Positions 1,850 to 27,283 of a DNA stretch of 64,000 nt are shown in pieces. The notes under the pieces were generated by a model. That model was not told where the DNA came from, did not search any database, and saw only the letters and a program-made list of their open reading frames with translations. The stretch spans positions 1-64,000 of the forward strand of contig CABHOV010000010.1 of NCBI GenBank assembly GCA_902168185.1, written 5' to 3'. Position 1 is the first letter of the stretch; each line of letters begins with the position of its first letter. This DNA is from an uncultured Bacteroides sp. Lineage in GTDB: Bacteria; Bacteroidota; Bacteroidia; Cytophagales; Cyclobacteriaceae. The position numbers were made by a program, and so were the translations under genes.

Positions 1850-3796
1850 ATGCCTGAGAAGAAAAACAAACCTGCCCAATATCCCTATCAAAACCTGTCA
1901 CTCGATTCCATGAAAGGAGAGAAGTGGGCAGATATACCCGGCTTTGACGGGGCCTATGGTATATCAAACTTTGGCCGTATTTGGGCAGCACCGCGCCTGA
2001 TCATATCAGAGGATGGAAAGCAACTATATTTTACCAAAGAACGCATCCGGAAACAAGCGCTGACGAAGTATTACAATACTTATACAAAAGACTATATGTA
2101 CCAGTTATCGATTCACCTGCGGTACGAAGGCGGTGACTATAGCTTCAAAGTAAACCGCCTGGTATATCATGCTTTCGTAAAGCCTATTGATTTTAAGAAA
2201 GATAAACTTGTCGTTGTACATAAAGACGGTGATAACCAGAACAACCGGTATGATAATCTTTTGCTGATGAACGGCACCGAACTATATATACATGGCTTAA
2301 GGAGCGAGCGAAGACCGCGTTCGGGGCGGTTGATAAAAAAGGACAGGAAACAATCGAGGTCGGATGCAAATTCACCACGGCCTGTTGTAAAGTATTCGCT
2401 GGACGGAAAAATGGTAGAAGAATACAGCAGTCTTGCGGAAGCTGCCCAGAAAAATAATACACACCGTGGCACGATTCGTACGGTCGTACAGAAAAAACTC
2501 AGGCAGCTTCATGGTTTTGTGTATAGGTTTAAAGGAGATCGTTACACGGGGGAGTTTAGGGATTTCTCGTGTGAGAAGAAGGTCACACAGTATAGCATAG
2601 AAGGTAAGAAGATAACCGTATATCCCAGCGTAAAAGAAGCGGGAGGGAAGACCGGGAACGATCCGGATACCATCAGTAAATGTGCACTCCATAAAACGAT
2701 GACCTGTGGTGGCTATGTATGGCGCTATGATAGCGATATATACCGTGGCGAGTATAAAAACAAGATCAAGAGTAAACCAAGGCCGATCGTACAGTACAGC
2801 CTGCCGGGAAAGAAGATTGCGCAATTTGATAGTGTAACGGAAGGGGCACGGACGACAGGGTTCAATGCCACTACACTACTCGATTGTGCGCATAAGCGGT
2901 CGAAGACATCGCATGGCTTTGTATGGCGTTTCGCGGGTGATGCCTATAGAGGAGAGTATAGCAATCATCGCATTGGGAAACCGGTGACACAATATACCCT
3001 TGAGGGGAAAAAGCTAAAGGTATATGCAACGATTGAGGAAGCAGCACGTGTAACCGGACTTACTGCTGCTAACATTCAGAAGAATGTTAGCAGCAGTAAC
3101 AAGACCGCAGGAGGGTATATTTGGAAATTTTCCTCGGTAGATGAGGTGAAGAACCTGGAGGCTGTACCTAAAAGCTATCAAGATCGACAACCGCTGGCTG
3201 GTAAAGAAGTTATTCAATACTCGATGGAAGGTAAGAAACTGCATGTATTTAGCACTATATCGGAAGCTGCCAAGGCATTTGGCATGCATGCTTCTAATAT
3301 TTCCTTTGCCTTGAATAAAGAAGATCGTACAGCTGGAAACTATGTGTGGCGAACAAAAGGAAATATATACCGTGGTGCTCTCGCCAGGGCACCTCGTGCC
3401 AATCAGGCAAAGTCCGTGACGCAGTATGATATGAAAGGTCGCAAGATCAGAACATATGAAAGTGCACGACAGGCACAAAAGATAACCGGCATTTCTTCCG
3501 GAACTATATCGTTTGTTGCGAGGGATAAACTTAAAAGTACCGGTGGGTATATATGGAAGTATGATAGTATAGCAAAGAAAATAGATGTAGAAAAGCATTA
3601 TTCATCTACCACCGAAAGGGTCAGGCGTAGTAGTAAGCCTGTCGGTAAATATTCCGTGGAGGGCGAATTGTTAAAAAGATATTCGAGCATTCGCGTGGCT
3701 GGTAAGGAAGAGGGTATAAATCCGACACGTATCTCCTCCGTAATTAACGGAAAATCGAAATCTGCTGGAGGATTTTTATGGAAGTTGGACGGATGA
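1850..3796 (+). CDS. NUMOD4/HNH-like protein with seven NUMOD1-type HTH repeats
   Basis: This is a 648-residue protein. Residues about 23-46 (EKWADIPGFDGAYGISNFGR) match the NUMOD4 motif of homing-endonuclease-associated proteins. Residues about 122-138 (VVHKDGDNQNNRYDNL) match the core of an HNH-3 type nuclease, though the usual second His is replaced (VVHK rather than VHHI). Seven repeats of about 66 residues follow, starting near 176, 243, 310, 376, 451, 520 and 595. Each runs QYSxxGKKxxxYxSxxEAAxxTGxxxxxIxxxx...GGYxWR, the NUMOD1/IENR1 helix-turn-helix module. The family normally carries one to a few such modules. Likely a DNA-binding nuclease or regulator. Whether it cuts DNA is not settled by sequence. 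Confidence 0.8.
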   Translation: MPEKKNKPAQYPYQNLSLDSMKGEKWADIPGFDGAYGISNFGRIWAAPRLIISEDGKQLYFTKERIRKQALTKYYNTYTKDYMYQLSIHLRYEGGDYSFKVNRLVYHAFVKPIDFKKDKLVVVHKDGDNQNNRYDNLLLMNGTELYIHGLRSERRPRSGRLIKKDRKQSRSDANSPRPVVKYSLDGKMVEEYSSLAEAAQKNNTHRGTIRTVVQKKLRQLHGFVYRFKGDRYTGEFRDFSCEKKVTQYSIEGKKITVYPSVKEAGGKTGNDPDTISKCALHKTMTCGGYVWRYDSDIYRGEYKNKIKSKPRPIVQYSLPGKKIAQFDSVTEGARTTGFNATTLLDCAHKRSKTSHGFVWRFAGDAYRGEYSNHRIGKPVTQYTLEGKKLKVYATIEEAARVTGLTAANIQKNVSSSNKTAGGYIWKFSSVDEVKNLEAVPKSYQDRQPLAGKEVIQYSMEGKKLHVFSTISEAAKAFGMHASNISFALNKEDRTAGNYVWRTKGNIYRGALARAPRANQAKSVTQYDMKGRKIRTYESARQAQKITGISSGTISFVARDKLKSTGGYIWKYDSIAKKIDVEKHYSSTTERVRRSSKPVGKYSVEGELLKRYSSIRVAGKEEGINPTRISSVINGKSKSAGGFLWKLDG

Positions 3797-4098: not shown

Positions 4099-7000
4099 AT
4101 GAAATTTTATTACTGCAACACCGTCTTTGTATTCATAGCCTTGTTTCTCTTATCGAGAGAGGGATGTGGGCAATCAGGCCCGTCTCTAAAAGTGGTTAGT
4201 CCCCCACCTCCAGACGTGAGTGCTATAAGTAAATTTGGTCAAATACCTGTGAGTAATTTTACGGGTGTACCAGATATATCTATTCCTATTCATAATATTA
4301 GCGACGGCACGCTTACATTTCCAATCTCTATCAAATACCACGCAGGTGGGGTGAAAGTTAAAGATGATGCCAGCGAAGTTGGTCTAGGGTGGTCACTGTC
4401 GGCAAGTGGCTCTATCACCGCCATTGTGCGTGGCAATCCTGATTTTCCAACAGGTTTTTCCAATACCTACATGGATATGCCAGATGCTCCATCGAATATA
4501 CTTGCAAGTAGATCGCCATTGGCGAGTATAAATGATTGGTATTACGCATGGGGTAATGATTTCTATAATTTTTCTTCAGTTTATAGTGGGCTAAATTTGT
4601 TACACGGGGGTATTGCGAAGGAGTATTTTTACTACTTCACCGTGGGAAGTGAAGGTAGCGCCCCGGATTTTGCATCGGACGTTTACATCTTAAATCTTGG
4701 CAACCGAAGTCTTAAATTTGTTTTTGATAACAACTTTACCCCAGTAATACTTGGAGATGGAAAGGTAAAGATAGAGATGATACCAAATGGTGCTTATCCC
4801 GACTGGAAAGTGACAGATGAAGCTGGAACAGCTTATTATTTTACAAAGCGGCAGTTCTCCTATAGTAATGTTGTGAATCCATACCAAACTGCTGGCACTC
4901 CAGCGAGTTTGAGTACATGGCATCTTACTAAAATGGAATCGGCCACGTACGGTAGTCTCGTTTTTAATTACCTACATTCTAATGCAACCTTCGTGCGTCC
5001 ATTGCCCAGTGTGACAGAAACATACCGGGTTGGAAATGCATCGCCTAATATCCAAGAGAATATAGAATCGGTCACTGCACACTATACTATATACGAGCAA
5101 CTTAATATTGACTATATCCAGTTTTCTTCTGGTAAGGTTAAGTTCCTTTATGATGATCAAAGACTTGACTTGCAAGGAGGAAGGCGTTTAAAATCAATTG
5201 AGGTGCGTGACGAATCTGATAAAGTTGTAAAACGAGTTAACTTGGATAACAACTCCTATTTCACGAATACACAGTCATACAGTGGAAATACCAACTTTAT
5301 TAATCTTTTTAACAGCCTGAGCGGTTACACAGCTGACAATCACAATAAGCGCCTGAAGCTAAACGGAGTCAGCGAGGTTGATGTTATTGAGAATCGCACT
5401 GATTATCAGTATACATTTACCTACAATGAGCAGGTGAAACTTCCTGGTAAATTGTCTTTGTCCATAGATCATTGGGGATTTTACAATGGTGCAATGAACA
5501 AGCAACTAGCGCCACCGGCTACGGTAAATCTTCCATCATCATCGTCTCCTATAGTTCTTGATGGTGCAAACAGAGAAGCTAATCCGTCTTATTCGACAGC
5601 CAATGTGTTGACCTCCGTTCGATATCCGACCGGAGCAACTTCAACATTTGGTTACGAAAACCATTCATATGATAGAATGGAGACTGTTATAACGTATCAT
5701 GATGAGGTAAGCAGTTTGTTTAAGGACGAGGGATCACCTACTGTATATAGTTCAGGCTTTGTTGATGCTAATGGTAATTTCACTGCTGATCCATCATGGA
5801 ATGGTAAAACACTACAAATGTTTTTTCTCGTATACAGTGATTTCAATCAGTACCCATCTAGTCAGTATAGTCTCGAACTCGTGGTTAAAAAGAACGGCTT
5901 GTTTTTAAAGAGAATGACTATACCGCGAGGAGGGACATCCTTTATCGATACTTCTATTACAATAGAAGGTGGAAGCACCTACAATATTTCCTTTGATCCG
6001 TCAACAATTGATTTTTTTAATAGCCTGGAGATCCGAAGAGAATTTTTTATTGCGAAAACATCAAGCACCTCCGAGCAGGTAATGAAAACGCATTATCTAG
6101 GCGGTTTGCGCGTTAGTTCAATCACCAACTACGACCCCGTTAACAAAACTACTTTTAAGAAAAAATATACATATAAAGATGGAACTGCGGATGATATACC
6201 AATTTACACATCGAAGGTGGGACATGACTATTATATAAATTCAAATAACAATATCGTTGATAATCCTTTTTGTTATCGTTATGGACAGTCTGTTTATTCG
6301 TTTTCCGATGGTCAGGACGCTCCATACTTCGGCTATGAAACAGTACAAGTTTCCGATCTCAATGCGGCTAATATTCCAAACGGTATGACAGAGTATAGCT
6401 ATAATAATTCAGGAAGTATCAATGTCAATACGATGCTACATTATGGTAATCAGTTAACGGTTAATGTTTCAAATCCGATTATGGTGGCTATCCCTTCTAT
6501 AACGCGCGGTAGGGGCGATTTGATGTACGTTAAGACTTTCAAATGGGTTAATAACACGATGAAGCCAGTTTTAATGGATAGATATTATTATACCCAAAAT
6601 AACTCAACGAAGATATGGCAGATGCTTTTTAATCAAGGATTGGGAGATTTTCTCTCTCCTGGCTATGATGGTGCCAGAGTTTTTAAAATCTATGCTCACC
6701 ATTTTGCCATTCCAGTAAACCGGAATACACTTGATCGGAAAGAATCTTATCAATATGATGAGCAAGGAAATGAACGATTAGTGAATGAGGAAAGCTATCA
6801 ATACGATGTTGCCAATGGGCACTATCAGATAATAAAGAAATCTACGAAACGATCGAATGGAGACACCGAGAATGTATACTATAAATATCCTCAGGACTAT
6901 ACTTCCTTAGCAGGGCAAGCGAACCTGGATGCTTTTTCGCAGGGCCTACAAACCTTGCAGAGCAGGCATATTGTAACTCCGGTAGAATCGTACAAGGAGT

Positions 7001-8523
7001 TGATCGATCCGGATTTCCCTGGTACCAAGAAGTATACAGAAGGTCTACTGAACACATTTAACAGCTCGTTGCCTACTTTAAAAGAAGTTTTGGCCATTGA
7101 ATCAAAGACACCGTTGAATACTTTTAGTTTCTCTACTGTTATCAACGGAACTTTCAATAAAGATTCACACTATACGTCACGGGTCGGTTTTACTAATTAT
7201 GATGAAACGGGCCGACTACTTCAGCAATCACTTAAAGCTAACTACTCAATATCCTATATCTGGGGGTATGGAAAACAATTAGTTATTGCGGAAATAAGAA
7301 ATGCTTCACTCAGCAATGTCTTTTATGAAAACTTTGAAGAAGGAAATGGAAATAGCAGCATTGACGATTGTAATACAGGGTTCTACAGTTTTTCAGGTAG
7401 CTACACAAAGCAGTTAACCGGATTACAAAACGGGACTTACACGCTCAGCTACAGGAGTAAAGTAAATGATTTCTGGCAATTGACTAAACAAGCGATTGTG
7501 GTTTCAAATGGTAGCTATAGCATCAATTTGCAAACAGGCCAGTATGATGATGTCCGATTTCATCCAAAGGATGCTGAAATGACAACGTATACCTATGATA
7601 AGATCAGAGGAATAACCAGTCAAAGCGATGTCAATGGCAATACTGCGTATTTTGAGTATGATAATCTAGGTAGGTTAAAAACAATACGTGATACTCGGAA
7701 GAATATGATTAAGAGTTATAGGTATACCTACGGAAGTCCAAGCTTTGTATTAACATATATATGTGAGCAGGAAGGAATAAAAGATAATCTTACTGTAGAG
7801 AATTCAGCAATACAAATGGTGAGTAAATCACTCCAATACTTGGATGGTTTGGGAAATCTGGTTCAAACCGTTGCTGTTCAATCCTCTCCCGGATTGAACG
7901 ACATGGTACAGGCCATTGTGATGGATGAGTATGGCCGTTTTCCCAAAGCTTATTTGCCGTACACTTCCGGCGATAATATCGGTACATATAAAACTGATCC
8001 ATTGGGAAGAGCGACCAACAACTATGCATTAAGTCCACAGTTTCTTTTTTATCAACAGACACCGAACGTTGCAAATGATTCCAAACCATTTGCAGAAACT
8101 ATTTTTGAAAGCAGTCCGCTGAACCGTGTTGTCAAGAAGGGTGCCTCCGGAGAACTCTGGCAACCAGACAATACGCAATCTTATATATCTTCCGACCGTA
8201 CTGTTAAGTACGACTACGTCTTAAATGAATTGGATGAGGTTATGCGTTTTACATATGATCCCTCGATTGGACAAGTGAGTTCAAACGAAAACTATGCAGC
8301 AAATCAGCTTTATGTCAATAAGACTTCAGATGAACATAATCATGAAGTGATCGAGTATGTCGATAAAGAAGGCAAGACTATCCTTAAGAAAGTAGAGTAT
8401 AAGGATGAAAACGGGGTGAAACTATATGCTGAGACATACTATATCTACGATGACTTTGGAAGCTTGGTAGTAGTTCTTCCACCTGAAGCTGTTAAGGCTA
8501 TCAAATCTTCCTCATCTAATTAA
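4099..8523 (+). CDS. Secreted RHS N-terminal component fused to DUF6443 (cassette A)
   Basis: This is a 1474-residue exported protein. A signal peptide of about 25 residues (hydrophobic VFVFIALFLL, then GCGQS) is followed by SpvB/TcaC-like segments such as FPISIKYHAGGVKV and VGLGWSLSASG, and by YD-type repeats (TYTYDKIRGITSQSDVNGN). Near residue 1250 the DUF6443 signature YLDGLGNLVQTV begins. The protein stops after YYIYDDFGSLVVVLPPEA. In one-piece DUF6443 RHS proteins that motif leads straight into the RHS core. Here the core lies in the gene at 8959. In cassette B the same region is two genes (16354 and 19787). It should form part of a toxin-enclosing shell, which is inference from the RHS family. 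Confidence 0.8.
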   Translation: MKFYYCNTVFVFIALFLLSREGCGQSGPSLKVVSPPPPDVSAISKFGQIPVSNFTGVPDISIPIHNISDGTLTFPISIKYHAGGVKVKDDASEVGLGWSLSASGSITAIVRGNPDFPTGFSNTYMDMPDAPSNILASRSPLASINDWYYAWGNDFYNFSSVYSGLNLLHGGIAKEYFYYFTVGSEGSAPDFASDVYILNLGNRSLKFVFDNNFTPVILGDGKVKIEMIPNGAYPDWKVTDEAGTAYYFTKRQFSYSNVVNPYQTAGTPASLSTWHLTKMESATYGSLVFNYLHSNATFVRPLPSVTETYRVGNASPNIQENIESVTAHYTIYEQLNIDYIQFSSGKVKFLYDDQRLDLQGGRRLKSIEVRDESDKVVKRVNLDNNSYFTNTQSYSGNTNFINLFNSLSGYTADNHNKRLKLNGVSEVDVIENRTDYQYTFTYNEQVKLPGKLSLSIDHWGFYNGAMNKQLAPPATVNLPSSSSPIVLDGANREANPSYSTANVLTSVRYPTGATSTFGYENHSYDRMETVITYHDEVSSLFKDEGSPTVYSSGFVDANGNFTADPSWNGKTLQMFFLVYSDFNQYPSSQYSLELVVKKNGLFLKRMTIPRGGTSFIDTSITIEGGSTYNISFDPSTIDFFNSLEIRREFFIAKTSSTSEQVMKTHYLGGLRVSSITNYDPVNKTTFKKKYTYKDGTADDIPIYTSKVGHDYYINSNNNIVDNPFCYRYGQSVYSFSDGQDAPYFGYETVQVSDLNAANIPNGMTEYSYNNSGSINVNTMLHYGNQLTVNVSNPIMVAIPSITRGRGDLMYVKTFKWVNNTMKPVLMDRYYYTQNNSTKIWQMLFNQGLGDFLSPGYDGARVFKIYAHHFAIPVNRNTLDRKESYQYDEQGNERLVNEESYQYDVANGHYQIIKKSTKRSNGDTENVYYKYPQDYTSLAGQANLDAFSQGLQTLQSRHIVTPVESYKELIDPDFPGTKKYTEGLLNTFNSSLPTLKEVLAIESKTPLNTFSFSTVINGTFNKDSHYTSRVGFTNYDETGRLLQQSLKANYSISYIWGYGKQLVIAEIRNASLSNVFYENFEEGNGNSSIDDCNTGFYSFSGSYTKQLTGLQNGTYTLSYRSKVNDFWQLTKQAIVVSNGSYSINLQTGQYDDVRFHPKDAEMTTYTYDKIRGITSQSDVNGNTAYFEYDNLGRLKTIRDTRKNMIKSYRYTYGSPSFVLTYICEQEGIKDNLTVENSAIQMVSKSLQYLDGLGNLVQTVAVQSSPGLNDMVQAIVMDEYGRFPKAYLPYTSGDNIGTYKTDPLGRATNNYALSPQFLFYQQTPNVANDSKPFAETIFESSPLNRVVKKGASGELWQPDNTQSYISSDRTVKYDYVLNELDEVMRFTYDPSIGQVSSNENYAANQLYVNKTSDEHNHEVIEYVDKEGKTILKKVEYKDENGVKLYAETYYIYDDFGSLVVVLPPEAVKAIKSSSSN

Positions 8524-8535
8524 TTAGGGCTATAT

Positions 8536-8946
8536 ATGACTAAATCAATACTATTTATGCTAGCCTTACTGGTGAGCATTACATTGCCGGCACAAAATAT
8601 AGCCACGGAGACCTTGATTTGGCAGATCTCTCATGTACAGGATGTCAATACGGGGGAGAGCCTGTCATCAGAGAATGAAACCCTTGTTTCCTATGGTTCT
8701 CAAAAGGTTGAATGGAAGAATGCAGTGGGTATAAAACATACCTATATAGTAAATAAAACCAGCGGTACGTGGAGCAATACAAGCCAGAGCGGCTCTATGA
8801 TTTACCAAGTTGACAGTGGAGAGAAGTCCGGCACGATCACTTTTGAACGTGCAAAGAACGAGATCACAGTTCGTATACTATTGCTGAAGGGCGATGAACT
8901 TCCGGAGATGTATGAAATTAAAATTGTAAAAGTTACCGCCCTATAA
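8536..8946 (+). CDS. Small secreted protein of the split-RHS cassette A
   Basis: This is a 136-residue protein with a clear signal peptide (ILFMLALLVSITLPAQ). The mature part is predicted beta-rich (TETLIWQISHVQDVNTGES, GTWSNTSQSGSMIYQV, TITFERAKNEITVRILLL). I do not recognise a domain. It starts 12 bp after the upstream RHS gene and ends 12 bp before the LRR-RHS gene, so it is co-transcribed. Its paralogue at 20680 is almost identical after the signal peptide. Conserved position in both cassettes suggests a structural or chaperone part that joins the two RHS pieces, but that is inference. Confidence 0.75.
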   Translation: MTKSILFMLALLVSITLPAQNIATETLIWQISHVQDVNTGESLSSENETLVSYGSQKVEWKNAVGIKHTYIVNKTSGTWSNTSQSGSMIYQVDSGEKSGTITFERAKNEITVRILLLKGDELPEMYEIKIVKVTAL

Positions 8947-8958
8947 TTAGCCGCCAAG

Positions 8959-11900
8959 ATGAGATCTACTTTACTTACTTTTTTATCGAGTATTCTGCTA
9001 ACAGGCGCATTGAGTTTGACAGCGCAGGCTACTACAACAGCGCCTGTGGATATAGTTCCGGATGCTGTTGAATTTGCTGCTTTGAAAGCTATATATGATA
9101 ACCTTGGCGGCAGTGGATGGACCACAAAAACAAACTGGCCAATAAGCGGCAGTTGGCCGTCATCGGCTACGAGTGCACAGTTTGGTACCTGGTACGGTGT
9201 AACGGTTGCCAATGGAGATATTACCAAGATCATTCTGAATGGCAATAAGCTAACAGGGGCAATCCCTGTTGAAATTGGATCGTTGCAAGCATTGAGTACA
9301 CTGTATATGTATAACAATGCCGGTATAACGGGGAGTATACCAGCGTCCATAGGGCAAATGACTGCGTTGCAATTCTTATCTCTTTATAGCTGCAACCTGA
9401 CGGGTACAATTCCTTCGTCTTTATTCGATATAGCTGGGTTACAATATGTTTCTCTTGCTATTAACAAACTAAGCGGCAGCATTCCTTCTAATGTCGGTAA
9501 TGCCACAGCGCTTACCTATCTAAGTTTTTATGACAATGCTCTTACAGGTACTATCCCTTCGAGTATTTGCAACCTGGTTAATCTTACCGGATTATATCTT
9601 TATGAAAATGCGCTCACCGGCAGCATTCCATCTAACATTGGAAACCTTTCAAAGCTTGTTAATCTTTGGTTATATACTAATAAGTTAACCGGAGACATCC
9701 CGAATTCTCTTTGGAACATAACTACTTTGGTAGATTTAAAATTGAGCACGAACCAGTTAACAGGTATAATCCCATCATCTGTAAAAAATCTAATCAATCT
9801 TCAAACTCTTACTCTTCATACCAATAAGTTGAATGGTTCCATCCCTTCTGAAATTGGTAGTCTAAGTAAGTTGCAATACTTGTATCTGTACAGTAATAAT
9901 TTCACTGGTGAATTGCCAGCTGAACTTGGCAATCTCAAGAACCTATTTTATTTCTATGTATATAATAATAAACTGAGCGGTACATTGCCGAATTCATTTG
10001 GTAGTATGGCTAAGTTACGCTACTTCCATATCTATAATAATCAGTTTACAGGCGCTATACCTGCATCGTTTTCTTCATTGAAAGATATAATTTCTTTTTA
10101 TATATATAATAACAAATTGAATGGTACACTTCCGACCAATCTATTTTCTGGTTGGTTAAAGATGACACATCTCGATGTGTCCAACAATCAGTTCTCGGGA
10201 GAATTTCCATCTTCAGTTTCTGAATGCACTTCGCTGGCGGCTATGAGCCTTCATAAAAATCAATTCACCAGCTTACCAACCGGTGTTCTCAGCTTGAATG
10301 TATTGACACGACTCAATTTAAGCTATAATGAGTTTACTTCACTACCGGATTTAACAACTCAACAGAACAAAGCTAATCTGACATTAGATATTTCGAGGAA
10401 CCGTCTTGATTTTGGTGCACTTCAGCCGTTGCTTACCGGAGGGATAAAAACAACTACACTCACACCGCAGAAGAACATACAGGACATTCTTTTTGTAACG
10501 CCTACCGTAGGAGCAACATTAACTATACTGGGTCGAGCGGCTGGCAGTAACGGTACGATTGTATGGGAGAAGCAAAAGAGTGGTGGTGACTGGGAGAGTG
10601 TCAATGCACAGAATGAAAACAGTACTCCACAGAATTATACCCGCAATGCATTCGCTGTAAGCGATGAAGCTATATACCGGATCAGAATGACGAATACTTC
10701 GTTTGCTGGTGTAACGATCATGAGTGGACCCATCAAGGTAAAGACAGCAATTAATCTTGCTATTGACAACTGGGGCTTCCAGTATAAATATGATGGAAGG
10801 AGACGGATGACGCATAAAAAGGTGCCTGGCGCTGACTGGGTATATATGGTGTATGATGAACGTGATCGGTTGGTGATGACTCAGGATGGTGAACAGCGCA
10901 AGAGTAATCAATGGCTGGTAACGAAGTATGATGCGTTGAATCGACCTATTATAACCGGTATATATACACATGCAACGGCAGTTGATCAATCAGCAATGGC
11001 TTCCCAGATCAGTACTACAGCCTTCTATGATACTTATAATGGAACAACAACTTTCCATGGTTATACGAATACTGTTTTCCCTTTTGACCTGACAAAGTTT
11101 GATGTGTTGACAGTGACGTATTACGATTCGTATGATTTTAAAGGTTTGCTCAACGATGATCGTTATAATTATAAATCAGATGAGTTAGATGAACAGTATA
11201 AATCCGATGCAGCGGGTAACAGTTTCCCCGGTGTAATAGGACAGGTTACATGTATCAAGACAAAAGTGCTTGACTACTATGGCACGGGCGGCGTTACCAC
11301 TTGGCTTACCAGTGTAAACTATTATGATGATAAATATAGGGTCGTTCAAACTGTAGCTGATAATTTTCAAGGCGGTAAAGATCGCATTACTAATATCTAT
11401 GATTTTACAGGTAAGGTTATGAAGAGCCGTACCAGCCACTATGGCATAAGCTGGACAAGCGTTGTCGGTGCCCAACGCAATGGTAACAGGCTTGATAAAA
11501 TCAGTACCACTAATGGTTGGGGCACGTCCTCGGGAGTATCTGTTGAGAAACTTCCCGCCAACAAAGATGGTTGGGTGGAGTTTACGGCAGCAGCTACCAA
11601 CAAGGCTATCATTGTAGGATTATCGACGTTGTCGGGGACTATATATCAACTTTACCTGACAAGTGGCGGTCAGTTTCAAATTAATGAAGGAGGTTCTTCA
11701 AATTTATTGGTGCCTTCACCTACCTATTCTGCTGGCCATGTCTTCAGAGTTGAAAGAAAATCTGGGAAGATAAAATTTTATAGAAATAACCTTTTGCTAC
11801 TTGAGCGACCGGCAACATCAAGTGAGCTAAGCGCTGTGTTTAATATTTATAATACAGCCGGTGTTATTTATAATATTCGCTCTTCCTTTGGCTCGTATAG

Positions 11901-14580
11901 TCCACAGAGTGTTACGCGTACTTTCGACTACGACCATGCAGGTAGGTTGAAAAAGGTATGGCACCAGGTAAATGATGGTGATAGGATTTTACTCGCTCAA
12001 AATGAATACAACGAGCTTGGCCAGATTATTACCAAGAAGCTTCATTCAGAAAATCAGGGTGGTACATTTAAGCAGCACGTAGACATGCGCTATAATATAC
12101 GCGGCTGGCTGACGCGTATCAACAACACAGATTTAGCAGCAGATGGAAGTGGTGATCCTCACGATCACTTTGGAATGAACCTTGTCTATAATGAACCTGT
12201 ATCGACACTGAACAATGCTCCTCAGTATAACGGAAATATATCGGCTATGACCTGGAGCAACAGCCAGGGGTATGATGATGTGAAGGCGAATGCCTATAGA
12301 TATAGCTATGATGCGATGAACCGTATCAGTGGAGCAGACTTCCTGCAAAAGCAATCCTCTGGATGGGATCTGCCACAACACAAGGATGCAAACGACAACA
12401 CGCTTGCCAGCGATGCCTTTAGCGAAACCGGTTATGATTATGATCTGAATGGCAACCTGCAACACCTTACCCGCAAGAGTACAAAGGGTGCCAGCATGGA
12501 TGTGCTAAGCTATGACTACGGCACAGGAGCAGCCAAGAGCAACAAGCTGTTGAGTGTAAGTGATGCAGGAGATATACGACAAGGCTTCACGGATGGAAAT
12601 GTAGGCAGTGAAGACTATAGCTACGATGCTAACGGCAGTATGAATGCCGACAAGAATAAGGACATTACAGCCATCACCTATAATCACCTGAATTTACCTG
12701 TACAAGTAACCAAGGTAAGCGGAGAGTATATTAAATACTTCTATGATGCAACAGGCAGAAAGTTATGCCAGCAAGTATTTAACGGCAGCAGTGCGCTAGC
12801 CAAGCAGACAGACTATGCTGGTGAATACTTCTATGAGAATGATACCTTGAAGTTTATCAACCATGAAGAGGGTCGCATAGTGATGACTGGCACTTCACCG
12901 GAGTACCAGTATCATTTGAAAGATCATTTAGGCAACGTACGCGTAACGTTTACTACGAAGGTTGAGGTTGATAGCCCTGTAGCCACGATGGAGACTGCTA
13001 ACGAAGAGACAGAGGGTCAAGAATTTCTATACTATGATGAAGCAGTAAAAGTTGACTTTGAATTATTTGACCATACTAACCAAGGCCCTACATATTATTC
13101 CACTCGCCTCAACGGTACGGCTAGTGAACGAACGGGATTGGCGAAGTCGTTGAGTGTTATGCCTGGCGATGTGATCAAGGCAGAAGTATATGCGAAGTAT
13201 CTGGACACGAATAAGAGCAACTGGTCAACAGCCGTAACTAACCTAATCGCTTCGATTGCCAATGGAACAGCAGCTGCCACCACCTATGTAGACGGAGGAG
13301 CTATAGGAAGCACAGGAGGTACAGTTAATCCATTTGGAAGCATCCTGAACAAAGGAAATGAAACAGGAACAGCCCCAAAAGCTTATCTGAACTACTTAGT
13401 CTTTGATAGAGATTACAACATACTGGATGCTGGTTTCGTACGCGTAAGTGAAGCTGCGATGGAGAGCGGTACAGGTATACAGCGTGAACACGAGTTGCTA
13501 TCAAAAGAACTTGTAATAAAGAAACCGGGATATGTTTATCTTTACCTGAGCAATGACAACGTGGCTTTAGGCGGAAACCCTGTTGAGGTATATTTTGATG
13601 ACTTTATGGTGGAGCATACGAAGTCACCTATTGTTCAATCAGATGAGTACTATCCATTTGGGTTAACGTTCAATAGTTATAGGAGGGAGAATAGTTTATT
13701 CAACAAGTATCAGTATAACGGCAAGGAATTACAAACAGCACTTGGCCTAAATTGGTCAGACTATGGTGCCAGAATGTATATGTCAGATATAGGGCGATGG
13801 GGTATACTCGATCCTTTGAGTGAGAAAGGTAGGAGATGGAGCCCCTATAACTACGCGCTAAACAATCCGATTCGTTTTATTGATCCGGATGGGATGTGGC
13901 CAGATTTACCAAGCTGGGGTGATGTTGCTAATTTTGCCAATGGTGTTGTCAATGCTGTAGTATCCAACAATACAACTGTATCAGGTGTTAATGGACAAGT
14001 TCTGGTGCAGGCAGTTGCACGAGAGTCCCGCAGCTCAACAGCCTACAATGTAGGGCAGACAGTTGGAGATGTAATTAGCGTTGCTCAAGGTGTAATAGAG
14101 GGTGTTGCTGGAGGCACTATAGCAACAGGCGGTACAGTTGCTGGTGTAGTCACAATGCCAACTGGTGTAGGAGCCGTTGCAGGTGGGGCTGTAGCCGTCG
14201 GCGGTACAGTAGTTGCTGCACATGGTGTTAGCGTTGCAAAGAATGCGTTGAATCACTTGGTGAATTCGGATAGTAAAAATTCAAATAATGGACAATATGC
14301 TCCTACAGATGAGAAAGGGAATAAGACTCCACTTGCCAAAGATCAAACTGGGAAACCGACAAAAGACAAAGAGGCAACCGGACCACATACAACCTTAGGG
14401 ACAAGAGAAGGTAGAAAAGATACCTATACACAAGGAGCTGAATTTGATGGTGATGGGAATTTAGTAAAGAGAATTGACTATACTGATCATGGTCGCCCGC
14501 AAAATCATACAAATCCACATCAGCACTCATGGTATGGAGATCAGGGCGGTTGGGGATCAGCGCAACCCCTTCCTAATTAA
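8959..14580 (+). CDS. LRR-Ig-RHS polymorphic toxin, toxin A C-terminus
   Basis: This is a 1873-residue exported protein. A signal peptide (LLTFLSSILLTGALSLTAQA) is followed by an LRR N-cap with the WTTKTNW and WYGVTV landmarks, then about 15 plant-type leucine-rich repeats (LTGxIPxxIGNLxxLxxLxLxxN) over residues ~89-475. An Ig-like domain covers ~513-595. The RHS core runs from FQYKYDGRRRMTHKKVPGAD at ~606 to NPIRFIDPDGM at ~1643. The variable tail ends DYTDHGRPQNHTNPHQH, which I associate with polymorphic toxin type 24. It is probably released from the shell by RHS-type processing at the DPDGM junction. The next gene is the likely immunity protein. Confidence 0.82.
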   Translation: MRSTLLTFLSSILLTGALSLTAQATTTAPVDIVPDAVEFAALKAIYDNLGGSGWTTKTNWPISGSWPSSATSAQFGTWYGVTVANGDITKIILNGNKLTGAIPVEIGSLQALSTLYMYNNAGITGSIPASIGQMTALQFLSLYSCNLTGTIPSSLFDIAGLQYVSLAINKLSGSIPSNVGNATALTYLSFYDNALTGTIPSSICNLVNLTGLYLYENALTGSIPSNIGNLSKLVNLWLYTNKLTGDIPNSLWNITTLVDLKLSTNQLTGIIPSSVKNLINLQTLTLHTNKLNGSIPSEIGSLSKLQYLYLYSNNFTGELPAELGNLKNLFYFYVYNNKLSGTLPNSFGSMAKLRYFHIYNNQFTGAIPASFSSLKDIISFYIYNNKLNGTLPTNLFSGWLKMTHLDVSNNQFSGEFPSSVSECTSLAAMSLHKNQFTSLPTGVLSLNVLTRLNLSYNEFTSLPDLTTQQNKANLTLDISRNRLDFGALQPLLTGGIKTTTLTPQKNIQDILFVTPTVGATLTILGRAAGSNGTIVWEKQKSGGDWESVNAQNENSTPQNYTRNAFAVSDEAIYRIRMTNTSFAGVTIMSGPIKVKTAINLAIDNWGFQYKYDGRRRMTHKKVPGADWVYMVYDERDRLVMTQDGEQRKSNQWLVTKYDALNRPIITGIYTHATAVDQSAMASQISTTAFYDTYNGTTTFHGYTNTVFPFDLTKFDVLTVTYYDSYDFKGLLNDDRYNYKSDELDEQYKSDAAGNSFPGVIGQVTCIKTKVLDYYGTGGVTTWLTSVNYYDDKYRVVQTVADNFQGGKDRITNIYDFTGKVMKSRTSHYGISWTSVVGAQRNGNRLDKISTTNGWGTSSGVSVEKLPANKDGWVEFTAAATNKAIIVGLSTLSGTIYQLYLTSGGQFQINEGGSSNLLVPSPTYSAGHVFRVERKSGKIKFYRNNLLLLERPATSSELSAVFNIYNTAGVIYNIRSSFGSYSPQSVTRTFDYDHAGRLKKVWHQVNDGDRILLAQNEYNELGQIITKKLHSENQGGTFKQHVDMRYNIRGWLTRINNTDLAADGSGDPHDHFGMNLVYNEPVSTLNNAPQYNGNISAMTWSNSQGYDDVKANAYRYSYDAMNRISGADFLQKQSSGWDLPQHKDANDNTLASDAFSETGYDYDLNGNLQHLTRKSTKGASMDVLSYDYGTGAAKSNKLLSVSDAGDIRQGFTDGNVGSEDYSYDANGSMNADKNKDITAITYNHLNLPVQVTKVSGEYIKYFYDATGRKLCQQVFNGSSALAKQTDYAGEYFYENDTLKFINHEEGRIVMTGTSPEYQYHLKDHLGNVRVTFTTKVEVDSPVATMETANEETEGQEFLYYDEAVKVDFELFDHTNQGPTYYSTRLNGTASERTGLAKSLSVMPGDVIKAEVYAKYLDTNKSNWSTAVTNLIASIANGTAAATTYVDGGAIGSTGGTVNPFGSILNKGNETGTAPKAYLNYLVFDRDYNILDAGFVRVSEAAMESGTGIQREHELLSKELVIKKPGYVYLYLSNDNVALGGNPVEVYFDDFMVEHTKSPIVQSDEYYPFGLTFNSYRRENSLFNKYQYNGKELQTALGLNWSDYGARMYMSDIGRWGILDPLSEKGRRWSPYNYALNNPIRFIDPDGMWPDLPSWGDVANFANGVVNAVVSNNTTVSGVNGQVLVQAVARESRSSTAYNVGQTVGDVISVAQGVIEGVAGGTIATGGTVAGVVTMPTGVGAVAGGAVAVGGTVVAAHGVSVAKNALNHLVNSDSKNSNNGQYAPTDEKGNKTPLAKDQTGKPTKDKEATGPHTTLGTREGRKDTYTQGAEFDGDGNLVKRIDYTDHGRPQNHTNPHQHSWYGDQGGWGSAQPLPN

Positions 14581-14593
14581 TATATAAGATTAT

Positions 14594-15016
14594 ATGGAGA
14601 AATATTTTAAAGAGTATATTTTGAACGAAGAGTGCCGACACGACTATAAATCGTTGTTTACATGTATTAATAGATTTGAAAAGGAATTGATATTGTTGGA
14701 CTTTGAATTTTTAGGAAAGCGGGGAAGTGATTTTAATTTTCCAGAATACGAAGAACTTGTTTTGAAAAACAAGTCAGGGTTAACATTGGAATGGAATACT
14801 TGGTTTGCCTTAGTAGCAGACACTGTCCAAATCATTAATTTATTGATAGCAAAACCGCTCACAAGCGTCAATGAAGTTGACTATGACGATTTGAAAGGAA
14901 CTACTTCGTTTTTTATAGAATGCGTAGACGGATATAACTGGAGCGTAGGTACTGATAATGAAAGACTTTTTGATGCATTGAATATCTACTTTACAAATAC
15001 TATTACCGCTCGTTAG
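14594..15016 (+). CDS. Putative immunity protein for toxin A
   Basis: This is a 140-residue soluble, acidic protein without signal peptide or membrane segment, beginning MEKYFKEYILNEECRHDY and containing SGLTLEWNTWFALVADT. It starts 13 bp after the toxin gene, has no counterpart elsewhere in the window, and is followed by an intrinsic terminator. Position immediately 3' of the toxin tip is the standard place for a cognate immunity gene in polymorphic toxin loci. The assignment rests on position, not on a recognised immunity family. Confidence 0.65.
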   Translation: MEKYFKEYILNEECRHDYKSLFTCINRFEKELILLDFEFLGKRGSDFNFPEYEELVLKNKSGLTLEWNTWFALVADTVQIINLLIAKPLTSVNEVDYDDLKGTTSFFIECVDGYNWSVGTDNERLFDALNIYFTNTITAR

Positions 15017-16353: not shown

Positions 16354-19300
16354 ATGATCATTCGACAGTTGTCGCGTGTAACCCTTGTAATGCTAATTTG
16401 CTTATCTACTACAAGAAATTTTGGTCAATCCCTAAATCCGAGTTTACAAAGTTATACACCACCGTCTCCAACGGCTGCATCAATTGGCAAATTTGGTAAT
16501 GTTCCGGTAGGTACCTCTACAGGAATTCCAACCGTAAGTGTCCCTATATATACCTATAGCCATGCGAGCACTGGTCTTCAACTGTCCGTTTCATTGGACT
16601 ATCATGGGGGTGGTATCCGGGTAGACGACCTTCCAAGTCCGGCCGGAAGTGGATGGATTCTTACATGTGGCGGAGTTATCAGTCGGAACATGAGAGGCGT
16701 CTACGATGAAATGATGGGCGCCGGTTTTCTGAATACTCCATCTTTGCCTGCCAATGAAAGTCAGGGCAATAGCCCGTATGATATATCTGCAAGACCCTAC
16801 AACGACATTGATGCCAATGAACTCGATAGTCAGAACGATATATTCTCTTACAATTTTTTGGGGCAATCTGGAAAGTTTGTGTATGGAAAGGATGGTAATA
16901 TACTATTGTTAAATAGAGGTAATGTAAAAGTCGAGAAGTTTGTTGGTCCTCTTCATGGTCCTACTTCAATATATACTCTGATCAGTAAATTCATCATTAC
17001 CGATGATCGGGGATTGAAATATATATTTGATGATGCGGAAATGACGATTAGTCAATCGATGGCTACAGCTGCTGCGCAGTATACCTCGTCCTGGTATTTG
17101 TCTAAAATTCAATCGCCTTCCGGTATTGACTTGGTCACTTTTATTTATGAGGATACAGATTTTCAATATTTGAACGGAAGGAATGCTTCACAGACAACTG
17201 CAATGCCTGGATTAGCAGGACTTCCATCGGGTATGCCGTATACGGTTAGTACTTCGTCAAGTAGGACACAGGGTAAACGATTAAAAACTGTCAGTTTCTC
17301 CAACGGTGTTACAATGACCGTTGACTATAGCACTACAGAGCGAATTGATCCCAAGCAAGCGAGTGCCTATCAGGGCGATTATCTGTTGAAAGATATTACC
17401 CTGACGAGCCCCTCTATGACGCGCGGATTTAAGCTGGTTCATGACAACTCAACAAACCGCCCCACACTTAAAAAAGTTATACCGTATGGAGGCACTGCTA
17501 GAGTTGAGGATAAATACTATGAGTTCTTTTATGACATAGCATTACCGGATCGTCTTAGTAGCCAGCAAGATCATTGGGGCTTCTATAACAGTAATACGGG
17601 ATCGCTTATTCCCACAGAAGTGATAGCCGTTGGAGTTAATGGTAACTATGGTCAATATCATTTGCTGAGTGGTGGGAATCGTAATACCGATCCAACGCGT
17701 TGTAAGGCAGGGTCACTCAAGCGTGTAAATTATCCAACAGGTGGTTATACAGAGTTTGAGATGGAGGTTAACCGAGCCGTCGACCCGCGGTTAAACCAGC
17801 AGACCTCATTTATACAGTATATATATTCTTACAATGGAAGTAAAACGGCGTATTGCACCAGTAATTCAAGTACTACCACCACGTTTGATTTCAATGGTGA
17901 TGCAAATTCTCAAACAGAATTCACCATTCAAATTCCAAGCAGTTCGAACATAACCTGCAATTCATCGTCCTGTAAAGTATTCATCGAAATAAGAAACGCG
18001 TCCAATCAACTAATTGATTTACGTTCGTATGATCCTCCAGTGGGATCTTTCTCTCCACAATATACTTTCACCAATGGAACGCTGGTGCCGGGTACCTACA
18101 AGGTCGTCACCTATACGCAAGGATTAAGCAACTACTTCACGTACATTGATTTTCGCTGGAAGGAAGTGCGGATGCAAAACCCTGTTGAAGTACCACAAAC
18201 CCTAGGCACTAACCAGCTTTATGTCGGTGGACTTAGAATGAAAACGATATCAGACTATGCAGCCGGTTCTACGACAGCAGCATCGATTCGGGAGTATTCA
18301 TATCTTTTAGGTGATAATGTAACGTCTTCCGGTACATTAGGATTCTATCCAGTGTATTCTAATAAGATTTGCTACTTGTGGGGAGAAGGTGGATCCAGCG
18401 GTGAAGTGTATGAAGGAGCGTGTAATAGTCCAAATTATATTTCACAATCCAGCTCGACCATCCATCCCATGATGTTTTCTAGTGGCAGCCCGGTGGCTTA
18501 CAAGCGAGTAGTGGAACGAATCAAAGGCAGTGATGGCACATACCTTGGAAGAACCGAATATTACTATAAATCTTTCGATGATGTGCCGGTAGTAATCCTG
18601 AAACCTTTTCCTTTTACCCCTCCCGAGTACAAAGAGTGGCGTAACGGGCTGCTTGATAGGGTCGAGGTATATAGCAATAGTGGTATACTGAAAAAAGAGG
18701 AATATTTTTATCAGTCATATGAGGAGCCATATTGGAATGACCCAGCACGCTTCGAAAGCCTTCGCTCTATAACAATTGCTCCTGTTAAATACAAACAATC
18801 ACCTGGTTGGTCGCAACCCCGTTATTTTAAAGCGAACGACTTTTTCCCTATAGCAGGGCGCGCGGACCTGATCGAGAAAATAACGACAGAATATACTCTC
18901 AATGGAGAGGTTGTTAACAGAGAAACCAAAGCCCTTCATTCTGAATATTTTTATGTTACGAATACGGAAATAAAAAACAGTTTGGATAAAACTATTAAGA
19001 AACAGTTTGTCTATCCAAAGGATAAAGTAACAGCATCACAGGACCCGACAGGTGTTTACCAGGCGATGGTTAATAATAATCAAACTTCCGCTGTAGTTGA
19101 GGAAGTGAAGTATATATCGGGTTTGCAGTCTGAGTCGGTTAAGGCGTCCTATGGCACTCCCAAACCACTACTCTATATGCCGACGACAATTGTATCAAAT
19201 TTGCAGGGAAGTCCACTCGTAACATCGTTTCAATTTCACGAGTATGATTTATATGGGAACCCGGTTACAGTGTCTAAACAAAACGACACTCAAAAAACTT

Positions 19301-19782
19301 ATGTGTGGAACTCCAATACCCAGTTTGTAGAGGCGGAGATAACAAACGCAAGCTCGTCGCAGGTATATATCAATAACTTCGAAAGTTCCGAAGGTACCAG
19401 TGCTTTTGGAGATTGCCATACCGGACAAAAAAGCAGGGTTAATGGTTTTATAAAGCAACTGAATAATATTCCCAATGGTAACTATATAGTAAGCTATTGG
19501 TCGAAGTCTAGCACTGTTTGGACGTTTACCCGGCAGGATGTTGTGGTGAATTCCTCGACTTACACAATCAACCTATCAGGCCAAATTGATGATATCCGGT
19601 TTTATCCCAAGACGGCGACTGTTGCGACATACACATATGATCCGTTGGCAGGAGTGACATCTGTCACAGACATAAATAATCTTACCACCCATTATGTCTA
19701 TGACAATTTTGGAAGATTGAAGTTGATAAAAGATTCCGACGGGAACATTATCCGTCAGCTTGATTATCATTATAAGAACTAA
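16354..19782 (+). CDS. Secreted RHS N-terminal component (cassette B)
   Basis: This is a 1142-residue exported protein starting MIIRQLSRVTLVMLICLS, with a signal peptide cleaved near NFGQS. It is homologous to the first ~1230 residues of the cassette A protein. Shared landmarks are SIGKFGNVPVGTSTGIPTVSVPI, SVSLDYHGGGIRV, SGWILTCGGVISR, DHWGFYN and a final YD repeat (YVYDNFGRLKLIKDSDGN). Unlike A it ends there and lacks the DUF6443 part, which is the next gene, 4 bp away. The sequence has diverged much more from A than the downstream genes have. Confidence 0.8.
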   Translation: MIIRQLSRVTLVMLICLSTTRNFGQSLNPSLQSYTPPSPTAASIGKFGNVPVGTSTGIPTVSVPIYTYSHASTGLQLSVSLDYHGGGIRVDDLPSPAGSGWILTCGGVISRNMRGVYDEMMGAGFLNTPSLPANESQGNSPYDISARPYNDIDANELDSQNDIFSYNFLGQSGKFVYGKDGNILLLNRGNVKVEKFVGPLHGPTSIYTLISKFIITDDRGLKYIFDDAEMTISQSMATAAAQYTSSWYLSKIQSPSGIDLVTFIYEDTDFQYLNGRNASQTTAMPGLAGLPSGMPYTVSTSSSRTQGKRLKTVSFSNGVTMTVDYSTTERIDPKQASAYQGDYLLKDITLTSPSMTRGFKLVHDNSTNRPTLKKVIPYGGTARVEDKYYEFFYDIALPDRLSSQQDHWGFYNSNTGSLIPTEVIAVGVNGNYGQYHLLSGGNRNTDPTRCKAGSLKRVNYPTGGYTEFEMEVNRAVDPRLNQQTSFIQYIYSYNGSKTAYCTSNSSTTTTFDFNGDANSQTEFTIQIPSSSNITCNSSSCKVFIEIRNASNQLIDLRSYDPPVGSFSPQYTFTNGTLVPGTYKVVTYTQGLSNYFTYIDFRWKEVRMQNPVEVPQTLGTNQLYVGGLRMKTISDYAAGSTTAASIREYSYLLGDNVTSSGTLGFYPVYSNKICYLWGEGGSSGEVYEGACNSPNYISQSSSTIHPMMFSSGSPVAYKRVVERIKGSDGTYLGRTEYYYKSFDDVPVVILKPFPFTPPEYKEWRNGLLDRVEVYSNSGILKKEEYFYQSYEEPYWNDPARFESLRSITIAPVKYKQSPGWSQPRYFKANDFFPIAGRADLIEKITTEYTLNGEVVNRETKALHSEYFYVTNTEIKNSLDKTIKKQFVYPKDKVTASQDPTGVYQAMVNNNQTSAVVEEVKYISGLQSESVKASYGTPKPLLYMPTTIVSNLQGSPLVTSFQFHEYDLYGNPVTVSKQNDTQKTYVWNSNTQFVEAEITNASSSQVYINNFESSEGTSAFGDCHTGQKSRVNGFIKQLNNIPNGNYIVSYWSKSSTVWTFTRQDVVVNSSTYTINLSGQIDDIRFYPKTATVATYTYDPLAGVTSVTDINNLTTHYVYDNFGRLKLIKDSDGNIIRQLDYHYKN

Positions 19783-19786
19783 GTAT

Positions 19787-20665
19787 ATGAAATATATAGC
19801 AAGTATAATTCTGTGGTGTTTAGGTATTTTAGGAGCGGTGTATGCTCAAACTCCACTGTCATCAACACCGAGTACAGATCGTAATTACATCATCACTAAT
19901 TCAACATTAGTAGAAGGTATAAAGGATGAATCCCAAATCAGCGGCAAAACAATTGAGGAGGTTAACCAAACGATTCAATATTTCGATGGCCTGGGGCGTC
20001 CTGTTCAGACTATAAATACTATGGGGAGCCCAGCGGAAAAAGATATTGTACAGCCCCAGGAATATGACGTGTACGGTCGTGAGGTGAAGAGGTTTTTGCC
20101 CTTTACTTCGCCGGTAACTCCTGGTGCCTTTAAGTCTAATGCGCTGTATGGAACCACCGGGCTGTATTCAGGTAGTGATCAATACCTTTTTTATCAGAGT
20201 ACAGTTAATGTTGAACATGATGATAAACCGCTAACGGAATCGGTGCTGGAAGCTTCACCGCTTAGCCGCGTATTAAAACAAGGCGCTGCGGGTTCGCAGT
20301 GGCAGCCACTGCCTGTTGGACAGAGCGATCGATCCATTAAGACAAGCTACAATTCAAATACGTCAAATGAAGTTTTACAATTTGGATATGACCCAGCGAC
20401 GAACAATGTCGTCTTAAACACACTTACCTATTATGCTTCGAATCAACTGTATGTGACAAGAACCACAGACGAACATGATCACGAAATGGTTCAATATACA
20501 GACAAAGAAGGAAGAGTGGTGCTCAAGAAAGTTGAATACCAAGAGGCGAACGGCTTAAAGGTTTACGCCGAAACATACTATATATATGACGATTTTGGAA
20601 ACTTAATCGTGGTACTTCCTCCTGAAGCGGTTGTTGCTATTAAGTCATCTTTGCCAGCGAATTGA
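19787..20665 (+). CDS. Separate secreted DUF6443 component (cassette B)
   Basis: This is a 292-residue protein with its own signal peptide (SIILWCLGILGAVYAQ), starting at ATG 19787 rather than at the in-frame codon 27 bp upstream. The mature part has the canonical DUF6443 opening (TDRNYIITNSTLVEG, then IQYFDGLGRPVQTI) and ends YYIYDDFGNLIVVLPPEAV. In ordinary one-piece RHS proteins this is the first ~300 residues and is covalently joined to the RHS core. Here the core is in the LRR protein at 21103. The equivalent in cassette A is the C-terminus of the 4099 gene. Confidence 0.82.
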   Translation: MKYIASIILWCLGILGAVYAQTPLSSTPSTDRNYIITNSTLVEGIKDESQISGKTIEEVNQTIQYFDGLGRPVQTINTMGSPAEKDIVQPQEYDVYGREVKRFLPFTSPVTPGAFKSNALYGTTGLYSGSDQYLFYQSTVNVEHDDKPLTESVLEASPLSRVLKQGAAGSQWQPLPVGQSDRSIKTSYNSNTSNEVLQFGYDPATNNVVLNTLTYYASNQLYVTRTTDEHDHEMVQYTDKEGRVVLKKVEYQEANGLKVYAETYYIYDDFGNLIVVLPPEAVVAIKSSLPAN

Positions 20666-20679
20666 GATTATAGATATAT

Positions 20680-21093
20680 ATGAAAAAAACAATATTTATA
20701 GGTGTAGTAATGTTGTTGCTCCCAACATCACTGCCGGCACAAAATATAACAAATGAAACCTTGACCTGGCAGATCTCTCAGGTTCAGGATGTCAATACGG
20801 GGGAGAGCCTGTCATCAGAGAATGAAACCCTTGTTTCCTATGGTTCTCAAAAGGTTGAATGGAAGAATGCAGTGGGTATAAAACATACCTATATAGTAAA
20901 TAAAACCAGCGGTACGTGGAGCAATACAAGCCAGAGCGGCTCTATGATTTACCAAGTTGACGGTGGAGACAAGTCCGGCACGATCACTTTTGAACGTGCA
21001 AAGAACGAGATCGCGGTTCGTATTCTATTGCTGAAAGGCGAAGAGCTTCCGGAGATGTATGAAATTAAAATTGTAAAAGTTACCGCCCTATAA
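20680..21093 (+). CDS. Small secreted protein of the split-RHS cassette B
   Basis: This is a 137-residue secreted protein, paralogue of the one at 8536. The signal peptides differ (IFIGVVMLLLPTSLPAQ here), but the mature regions are nearly identical, with about 285 bp of almost unchanged DNA. It lies 14 bp after the DUF6443 gene and 9 bp before the LRR-RHS gene. Function unknown. Its strict conservation beside diverged neighbours argues for a required role or for gene conversion. Confidence 0.75.
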   Translation: MKKTIFIGVVMLLLPTSLPAQNITNETLTWQISQVQDVNTGESLSSENETLVSYGSQKVEWKNAVGIKHTYIVNKTSGTWSNTSQSGSMIYQVDGGDKSGTITFERAKNEIAVRILLLKGEELPEMYEIKIVKVTAL

Positions 21094-26716: not shown

Positions 26717-27283
26717 ATGATGAACTTTATTATAGGCTTTTTAGCCGGTGCGGTAACACTTTTTTTATTAAGCTTTCTTTTTAAGAAAAACCGCGAAAGG
26801 AAAGGTAAGTACCAAAGAGAATATCAGTCAAAATATTTTACAACAAAGATCAAAGACACGCTTAGACATCTCATCTTTGAATACTCGATTAAGAGGAGTA
26901 ATAATGATTTTCTTTTAAATATAAATTTCAAAGGAAAGCGTTCAATGCAAATTATGCATAGAGCACATTTTCCAGAATTGTGCGCATCGGAGAAAGATAT
27001 CGAATTTGGCTTAGCGGTTTACATCCCGACCGAGTATTTAACGAATGATCAAGTGTTTAAATTGGAGTCAATATTAATCGAGGAGTCAGAAAAATTTGAT
27101 AAATCCGGAAGACCAGTACCTTACTATGTACTTGACTTGGGAAGGAGAGTCCGCTATGGCGGATACTTAATATCACGAATAGCGAAAGAATTATTTAATC
27201 CGCAGGATAGTGACATCAGCTTTGAATTATTCAGTGAAGGTGACCTTCCGTACTTTTCTACTCCACAGATACACCCGAATTAA
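26717..27283 (+). CDS. Putative membrane-anchored immunity protein for toxin B
   Basis: This is a 188-residue protein. The N-terminus (FIIGFLAGAVTLFLLSFLF, then KKNRERKGK) is one transmembrane helix followed by a basic stop-transfer patch, placing the rest in the cytoplasm. The body (FNLQ-free, alpha/beta in feel, ending DISFELFSEGDLPYFSTPQ) matches no family I know. The start is ATG 26717, one base after the toxin stop codon, so the frame upstream of it is a shadow. Position and a terminator directly after it support an immunity role. A membrane anchor suggests protection at the inner membrane, which is inference. Confidence 0.65.
   Translation: MMNFIIGFLAGAVTLFLLSFLFKKNRERKGKYQREYQSKYFTTKIKDTLRHLIFEYSIKRSNNDFLLNINFKGKRSMQIMHRAHFPELCASEKDIEFGLAVYIPTEYLTNDQVFKLESILIEESEKFDKSGRPVPYYVLDLGRRVRYGGYLISRIAKELFNPQDSDISFELFSEGDLPYFSTPQIHPN

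Follow-up and report, generated by a model that had tools for sequence, protein, structure and literature searches.

Putative polymorphic toxin operons of Bacteroidota with an RHS strip divided between genes at recurrent cut points

The window analysed here, a stretch of 64,000 nucleotides from a Bacteroidota genome of 7.77 Mb, carries two gene cassettes, A and B, both on the forward strand. Cassette A comprises three ORFs at 4099-8523 (1474 aa), 8536-8946 (136 aa) and 8959-14580 (1873 aa), separated by gaps of 12 nt. The first opens with an N-terminal chain with a signal-like start, termed gene 1 (4099-7731; gene-1 model, 1-1147), here fused to the DUF6443 part of an RHS strip (7735-8523). 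This part, delimited by alignment and by a Pfam match to PF20041 at residues 1231-1360 (E 5e-32), stops nine residues past the motif LPPEAV, and the ORF ends in YIYDDFGSLVVVLPPEAVKAIKSSSSN directly before its stop codon. The second ORF encodes a small, secreted-looking protein that family searches left unmatched. The third begins with a signal-like start and an LRR region (8959-10458; LRR_1, E 4e-33), passes through a putative Ig-like stretch (10459-10758) and then carries the remaining RHS strip, from just before FQYKYDGRRR to the Rhs-associated core (10762-13893; Pfam RHS_repeat, TIGR03696 at E 9e-16, core model 1-1046), inside which lies a jelly-roll domain of SPRY/CBM66-like fold (11431-11901). 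It closes with a variable C-terminal tail, presumed to be the toxin (13894-14577), and is followed by an ORF at 14594-15016 that is presumed, from its position only, to be an immunity gene. A signal peptide, LRRs and an Ig-like domain had been assigned to this third chain in an initial annotation; the first two agree with a Sec-like start (by a crude script) and the LRR_1 match, and the Ig-like label found no counterpart in Pfam, the 109-aa stretch giving no match at E up to 5.

As had been claimed, the break is also present in cassette B, together with one more, its first chain being two genes: a separate gene 1 at 16354-19782, recognized by the gene-1 model, and a separate DUF6443 chain (gene 2) at 19787-20665, with its own signal-like start (PF20041, E 3e-39). 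The small secreted-looking protein follows at 20680-21093 (137 aa), then the toxin chain at 21103-26715, with a signal-like start, LRRs, an Ig-like stretch, the remainder of the RHS strip (22981-26115) and a tail (26116-26712), and finally an ORF at 26717-27283 with an N-terminal hydrophobic segment, again a presumed immunity gene by position only. Neither downstream ORF matched a family above cut-off. The domain assignments are well above threshold in both cassettes: DUF6443 scores 111.4 bits in A and 134.9 in B against a curated cut-off of 27.8, and Rhs_assc_core (TIGR03696) 58.2 and 62.7 bits against 32.5. The strip resumes at YKYDGRRRM in the next gene but one after LPPEAV, as initially described, though at residue 609 of the third ORF of cassette A rather than about 606, and at residue 634 of its counterpart in cassette B. 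Unlike in single-chain DUF6443 RHS proteins, DUF6443 and the RHS core are thus separate genes in both cassettes, and the RHS strip is therefore two chains in A and three in B, plus the small protein. Just upstream of cassette A, 1850-3796 encodes a NUMOD/HNH endonuclease-like protein with several NUMOD1 repeats, and ORF translations between 28258 and 34170 of the window read as proteins resembling FecR, SusC and SusD. PADLOC gave no clear match.

The initial annotation had called for a search of other genomes, regarding the break as a mere assembly error should the gene order be missing from all relatives. That condition does not hold: the same break, which we call split I, is present in 12 distinct Bacteroidota loci, namely cassettes A and B of the window, L013 (=L034), L014, L015 (=L033), L016 (=L036), L019, L035, L037 (=L103), L038, L043 and L102. 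Five profiles served for the searches, each built from sequences of the window and its relatives (seeds: DUF6443 10, gene 1 9, LRR 6, core 6, small protein 12), so some loci both seed and match. All split-I loci were detected via the small protein or the LRR-core chain, never via their own DUF6443-only gene; the LRR-core chain search returned 19 loci, seven of them split I. Throughout, the DUF6443 chain stops 0-5 residues past its model match and the core begins at model position 1 or 2 behind an LRR front. The exceptions concern other features: L038 has no small protein, genes 1 and 2 are swapped in L015, and L019 is cut by a contig start. A DUF6443-only ORF is present in all 15 split-I locus entries (11 after removal of duplicates, with both window cassettes in a single entry) and in one of 38 one-piece entries, where it is a fragment next to masked bases (L070). 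Gene 1 was found in 14 of the 15 split-I entries, fused to DUF6443 in cassette A and in L102, and in 36 of the 38 one-piece entries, the two others (L053 and L063) being cut by contig ends. Orphan RHS-core pieces with further tails, perhaps spare toxin tails, lie downstream of cassettes in L033, L037, L105 and L120.

The split genes can be set against the 38 one-piece ORFs that hold DUF6443 and core together. The initial statement that LPPEAV and YKYDGRRR lie close together in such proteins holds well, with 5-14 residues between the two models in 33 of 35 distinct ORFs (L116, with the same text as L115, and L052 and L053 are outside this count). The remaining two gaps are 56 residues in L117 and 159 in L059, the latter because its DUF6443 itself contains an insert. 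In L052 and L053, one-piece chains from the window's own genome, the break site is occupied by a jelly-roll-type segment, as judged by model matches. From these short gaps and inserts, the break site looks like a loop that tolerates inserts. The jelly-roll-type segment is also matched four times at the start of a chain in L101 (10166-16630) and several times in a 7,881-aa LRR protein in L042 (2426-26071).

Aligned separately to the one-piece chain L125, the DUF6443 rows cover residues 1-244 and the core rows run from 229-230 to the end region of L125, the first dozen or so residues of the core rows being Ig-side. When DUF6443 and core were aligned jointly, the core rows shifted at their start onto the DUF6443 repeats; joint alignments of this kind (gene 1 with DUF6443, and DUF6443 with core) slid onto wrong repeats and were excluded from structure work. 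The DUF6443 and core models also touch each other's repeats, an observation that carries no per-domain threshold and is therefore not counted. Taken with the distribution of DUF6443-only ORFs, the separate alignments lend indirect support to the view that the two halves make up complementary parts of a single RHS strip. Of 247 genomes sampled from the class, few of them from the family itself, 26 had matches to a query spanning the Ig-core junction. In the window's genome several matches extend over the junction; the matches listed for other genomes all begin on the core side, at query residue 80 or beyond, apart from two weak ones in genome G390 (starting at 55 and 56). One scan of viral contigs gave none, and others gave the contig of L125 and, in one case, also that of L127; among the matches listed for phage and plasmid collections, there were one-piece or unannotated relatives only.

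A second break, split II, occurs in L017, L018 (=L046), L040, L041, L045 and L101, of a related family. Here the second piece resumes the core at position 486-491 (474 in L018), again preceded by an LRR front, and the preceding gene stops at core position 485-486 in five of the six loci, that of L040 being matched by BLAST only. L113, L114 and L119 are unsplit at this site, and the split-II loci form one clade in the core tree. The two breaks can be compared within the window's genome, which contains both L017 (split II) and L019 (split I): their approximately 1,100 N-terminal residues are 63% identical and their small proteins 55%, but core identity is only 25%, and the cores begin at model positions 489 and 2, respectively. 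Such likeness in front and unlikeness in the core indicates that the same LRR-Ig module is used at two cut points. In L127, a single chain (4552-10155) carries an LRR front before DUF6443 and then the core, a possible intermediate.

The small protein was described at the outset as a secreted protein encoded exactly in the gap. A secreted-looking ORF does lie there, yet it is not specific to the gap. The 12-row profile gave at least 37 matches in 26 of 295 family genomes, with at most 14 candidates scored per genome, and the contexts of the 37 are nine split I, three split II, 19 one-piece DUF6443, three unsplit loci of the second family and three unclassified (L112, L122 and L124). Thus 19 of 37 directly precede unsplit DUF6443 chains, and a role as a gap filler was rejected because the protein also precedes unsplit toxin chains. 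These contexts indicate that the small protein is tied to toxin chains rather than to the break. No small gene was seen in L052-L071, 20 genus control regions chosen by DUF6443 (20 of 32 matches). Its dN/dS lies between 0.21 and 0.35 in six comparisons, and a search against PDB sequences gave nothing below E 0.1.

Purifying selection acts on the small gene, the LRR-Ig region and the core in the four loci tested, with dN/dS of 0.11-0.35 across 18 comparisons. At the DNA level, similarity of cassette A to its relatives starts at 8293 (against cassette B), 8434 (against L013) or 8590 (against L014) and stops near 13,690, so the small gene, LRR-Ig and core move as one block between differing front halves and tails. 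Cassette A and L013, for example, share 92% in the first core segment and 35% in DUF6443. Divergence of DUF6443 and of the core is only loosely correlated in split loci (Mantel r 0.33, p 0.005, and 0.19, p 0.09; n=12) compared with 24 of the 38 one-piece ORFs (r 0.60 and 0.67), which argues against a tight, specific interface; this weak co-divergence is compatible with reassortment of halves and also with chains that make no contact. In the tree, split-I cores are scattered among one-piece cores, with at least five forced changes. A single clade of split cores was rejected by the tree and by an AU test (p 3e-72), the latter run on a quick tree with the split and one-piece groups named by gene order. 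One of the two core trees left out L125 and L127 (long branches), and the other also L067, L047 and L123.

Beyond the shared front, the C-terminal tails vary in the manner of polymorphic toxins, a conserved front being followed by unrelated tails. Among 16 tails compared, four pairs are alike at E <0.1, none of them involving A or B. Toxin families were found above cut-off in four of eight other tails scanned: WHH and colicin DNase (L018), AHH (L102), EndoU (L017) and M91 (L043). The other four gave two domains of unknown function (DUF6973 and DUF4347), one C39-like peptidase below cut-off, and one tail without a match; the tails of A and B matched nothing above the curated cut-off, toxin families included. 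As for export, a crude script run without a negative control assigned a Sec-like start to 36 of 37 small proteins, all 20 LRR-core ORFs, 49 of 56 gene-1 ORFs, 10 of 13 DUF6443 ORFs lacking a core and 33 of 37 one-piece ORFs, several of the misses being ORFs with missing ends. SprA, a component of type IX secretion, is encoded twice in the window's genome; among the matches of the scanned chains, a set without the small protein of cassette B, there was no family of type IX sorting domains.

We think it probable, though not strongly so, that each operon encodes a polymorphic toxin with a TcB/TcC-like RHS shell made in exported pieces, which we infer would form one shell. The common form in relatives would be two chains, gene 1 in a TcB-like position and a DUF6443-RHS-core-toxin chain in a TcC-like position. 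In split loci, a block consisting of the small gene and the signal-LRR-Ig front would sit in the loop after DUF6443, so that the TcC-like chain becomes two genes. The chains would leave the cytoplasm one by one via Sec, and gene 1, DUF6443 and RHS core are likely to join outside it, forming a single cage that encloses the variable C-terminal toxin. The LRR-Ig part would hang from the seam as the target-binding part; the RHS strip is cut at defined points to which this probable binding module is attached. The small protein may aid the toxin chain, split or unsplit, for example as a chaperone or cap. A bolder form of this reading, which we offer tentatively, is a three-chain shell (gene 1, DUF6443 and core) assembled outside the cytoplasm, in which the seam would be a standard docking point, front and toxin-bearing back halves would reassort, and a receptor-binding LRR-Ig module would have been grafted at two seams of two shell families.

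Alternatively, the pieces may be independent secreted proteins, with the LRR-Ig-RHS chain building an open or smaller shell of its own, and the products of gene 1 and the DUF6443 gene acting separately, for example as adhesins. The weak co-divergence of the halves, the long N-terminal extensions of the DUF6443 chains in several loci and the separate signal-like starts would all suit such an arrangement, but the complementarity with one-piece chains, the fusions on both sides and the end-to-end mapping on a one-piece chain do not, and we regard it as unlikely. Less likely again is that gene shuffling produced the split incidentally, with the core chain taking the DUF6443 strip it lacks from any cluster in the genome and with no dedicated pairing. 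The block exchange in cassette A, the ten DUF6443 matches in the window's genome and the low correlation between halves speak for it; a DUF6443-only gene nevertheless stands in every split-I locus fetched, as expected of a kept partner.

Repeat-rich toxin loci are prone to misassembly, and some of the loci here have missing ends or are masked (L070, L040), so the genes might in principle be broken remnants left by decay or assembly error. We consider this very improbable: the same break is found in 12 distinct loci from different assemblies, the frames are open and tightly spaced, and the dN/dS values are those of maintained genes. Assembly error and decay were rejected because the break recurs and the parts tested are under selection. 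Should the shell of exported pieces be real, a cage cut inside its TcC-like half and exported piecewise would mean that an RHS strip can be built from parts after export, and the cut points would be natural sites at which to test how RHS shells close. The two defined, recurrent cut points occur in genomes that also encode one-piece relatives, and so offer ready-made natural comparisons.

In comparisons with known structures, core profiles matched the TcC chains YenC2, TccC2 and RHS2 (E between 9e-15 and 4e-13), over no more than the last ~90 positions; the best match in one such search, salivary gland surface protein 1 (3e-17), covers only the same ~90 positions. The gene-1 profile gave a weak match of 78 positions to the TcB protein YenB (E 0.012), and SpvB and TcdB_toxin_midN were each matched weakly by one of 11 gene-1 members (E 0.025 and 0.017). 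Among PDB sequences, A1 found none, the DUF6443 profile no RHS structure, and a single core sequence Tse5 only, at E 0.14. The sole structure model is poor (pLDDT 53, pTM 0.31) and its RHS Foldseek matches have TM-scores near 0.1; since the VIA rows fall on the jelly-roll region, they hardly probe the remainder of the model. Among the papers listed by the literature searches (judged by titles and starts of abstracts, in a collection without bioRxiv preprints and most subscription journals), we found no description of a split DUF6443 RHS shell, and the term DUF6443 was absent from that collection.

RHS cages are known as one-chain shells, and the type VI secretion Rhs effectors RhsA, Tse5 and RhsP are single chains. 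These share the RHS core with the present loci (RhsA and Tse5 by sequence matches, RhsA and RhsP by Foldseek), which differ in having several genes with Sec-like starts. In one-piece DUF6443 RHS proteins the core likewise follows DUF6443, and 36 of 38 such loci have a gene-1 ORF close by, but the two parts form one unbroken chain. The polymorphic toxins of the TcdB/TcaC pathway, which have a signal peptide, SpvB and a propeller and are reported from Bacteroidetes too (PMC3482391), resemble the cassettes in RHS repeats, secretion (here predicted) and variable toxins; the cassettes have no confident SpvB match and no propeller among the matches listed. A further known system is the TcB-TcC shell, in which TcB and TcC form a heterodimeric hollow RHS shell with a variable C-terminal toxin (PMC11067744). 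The initial view that a shell of separate chains would be a new architecture was accordingly overstated, because TcB-TcC is already two-chain. The loci described here differ from that shell in a further cut within the TcC-like part, in the LRR-Ig front found there, in the Sec-like starts of their chains and in a gene 1 with weak likeness to TcB.
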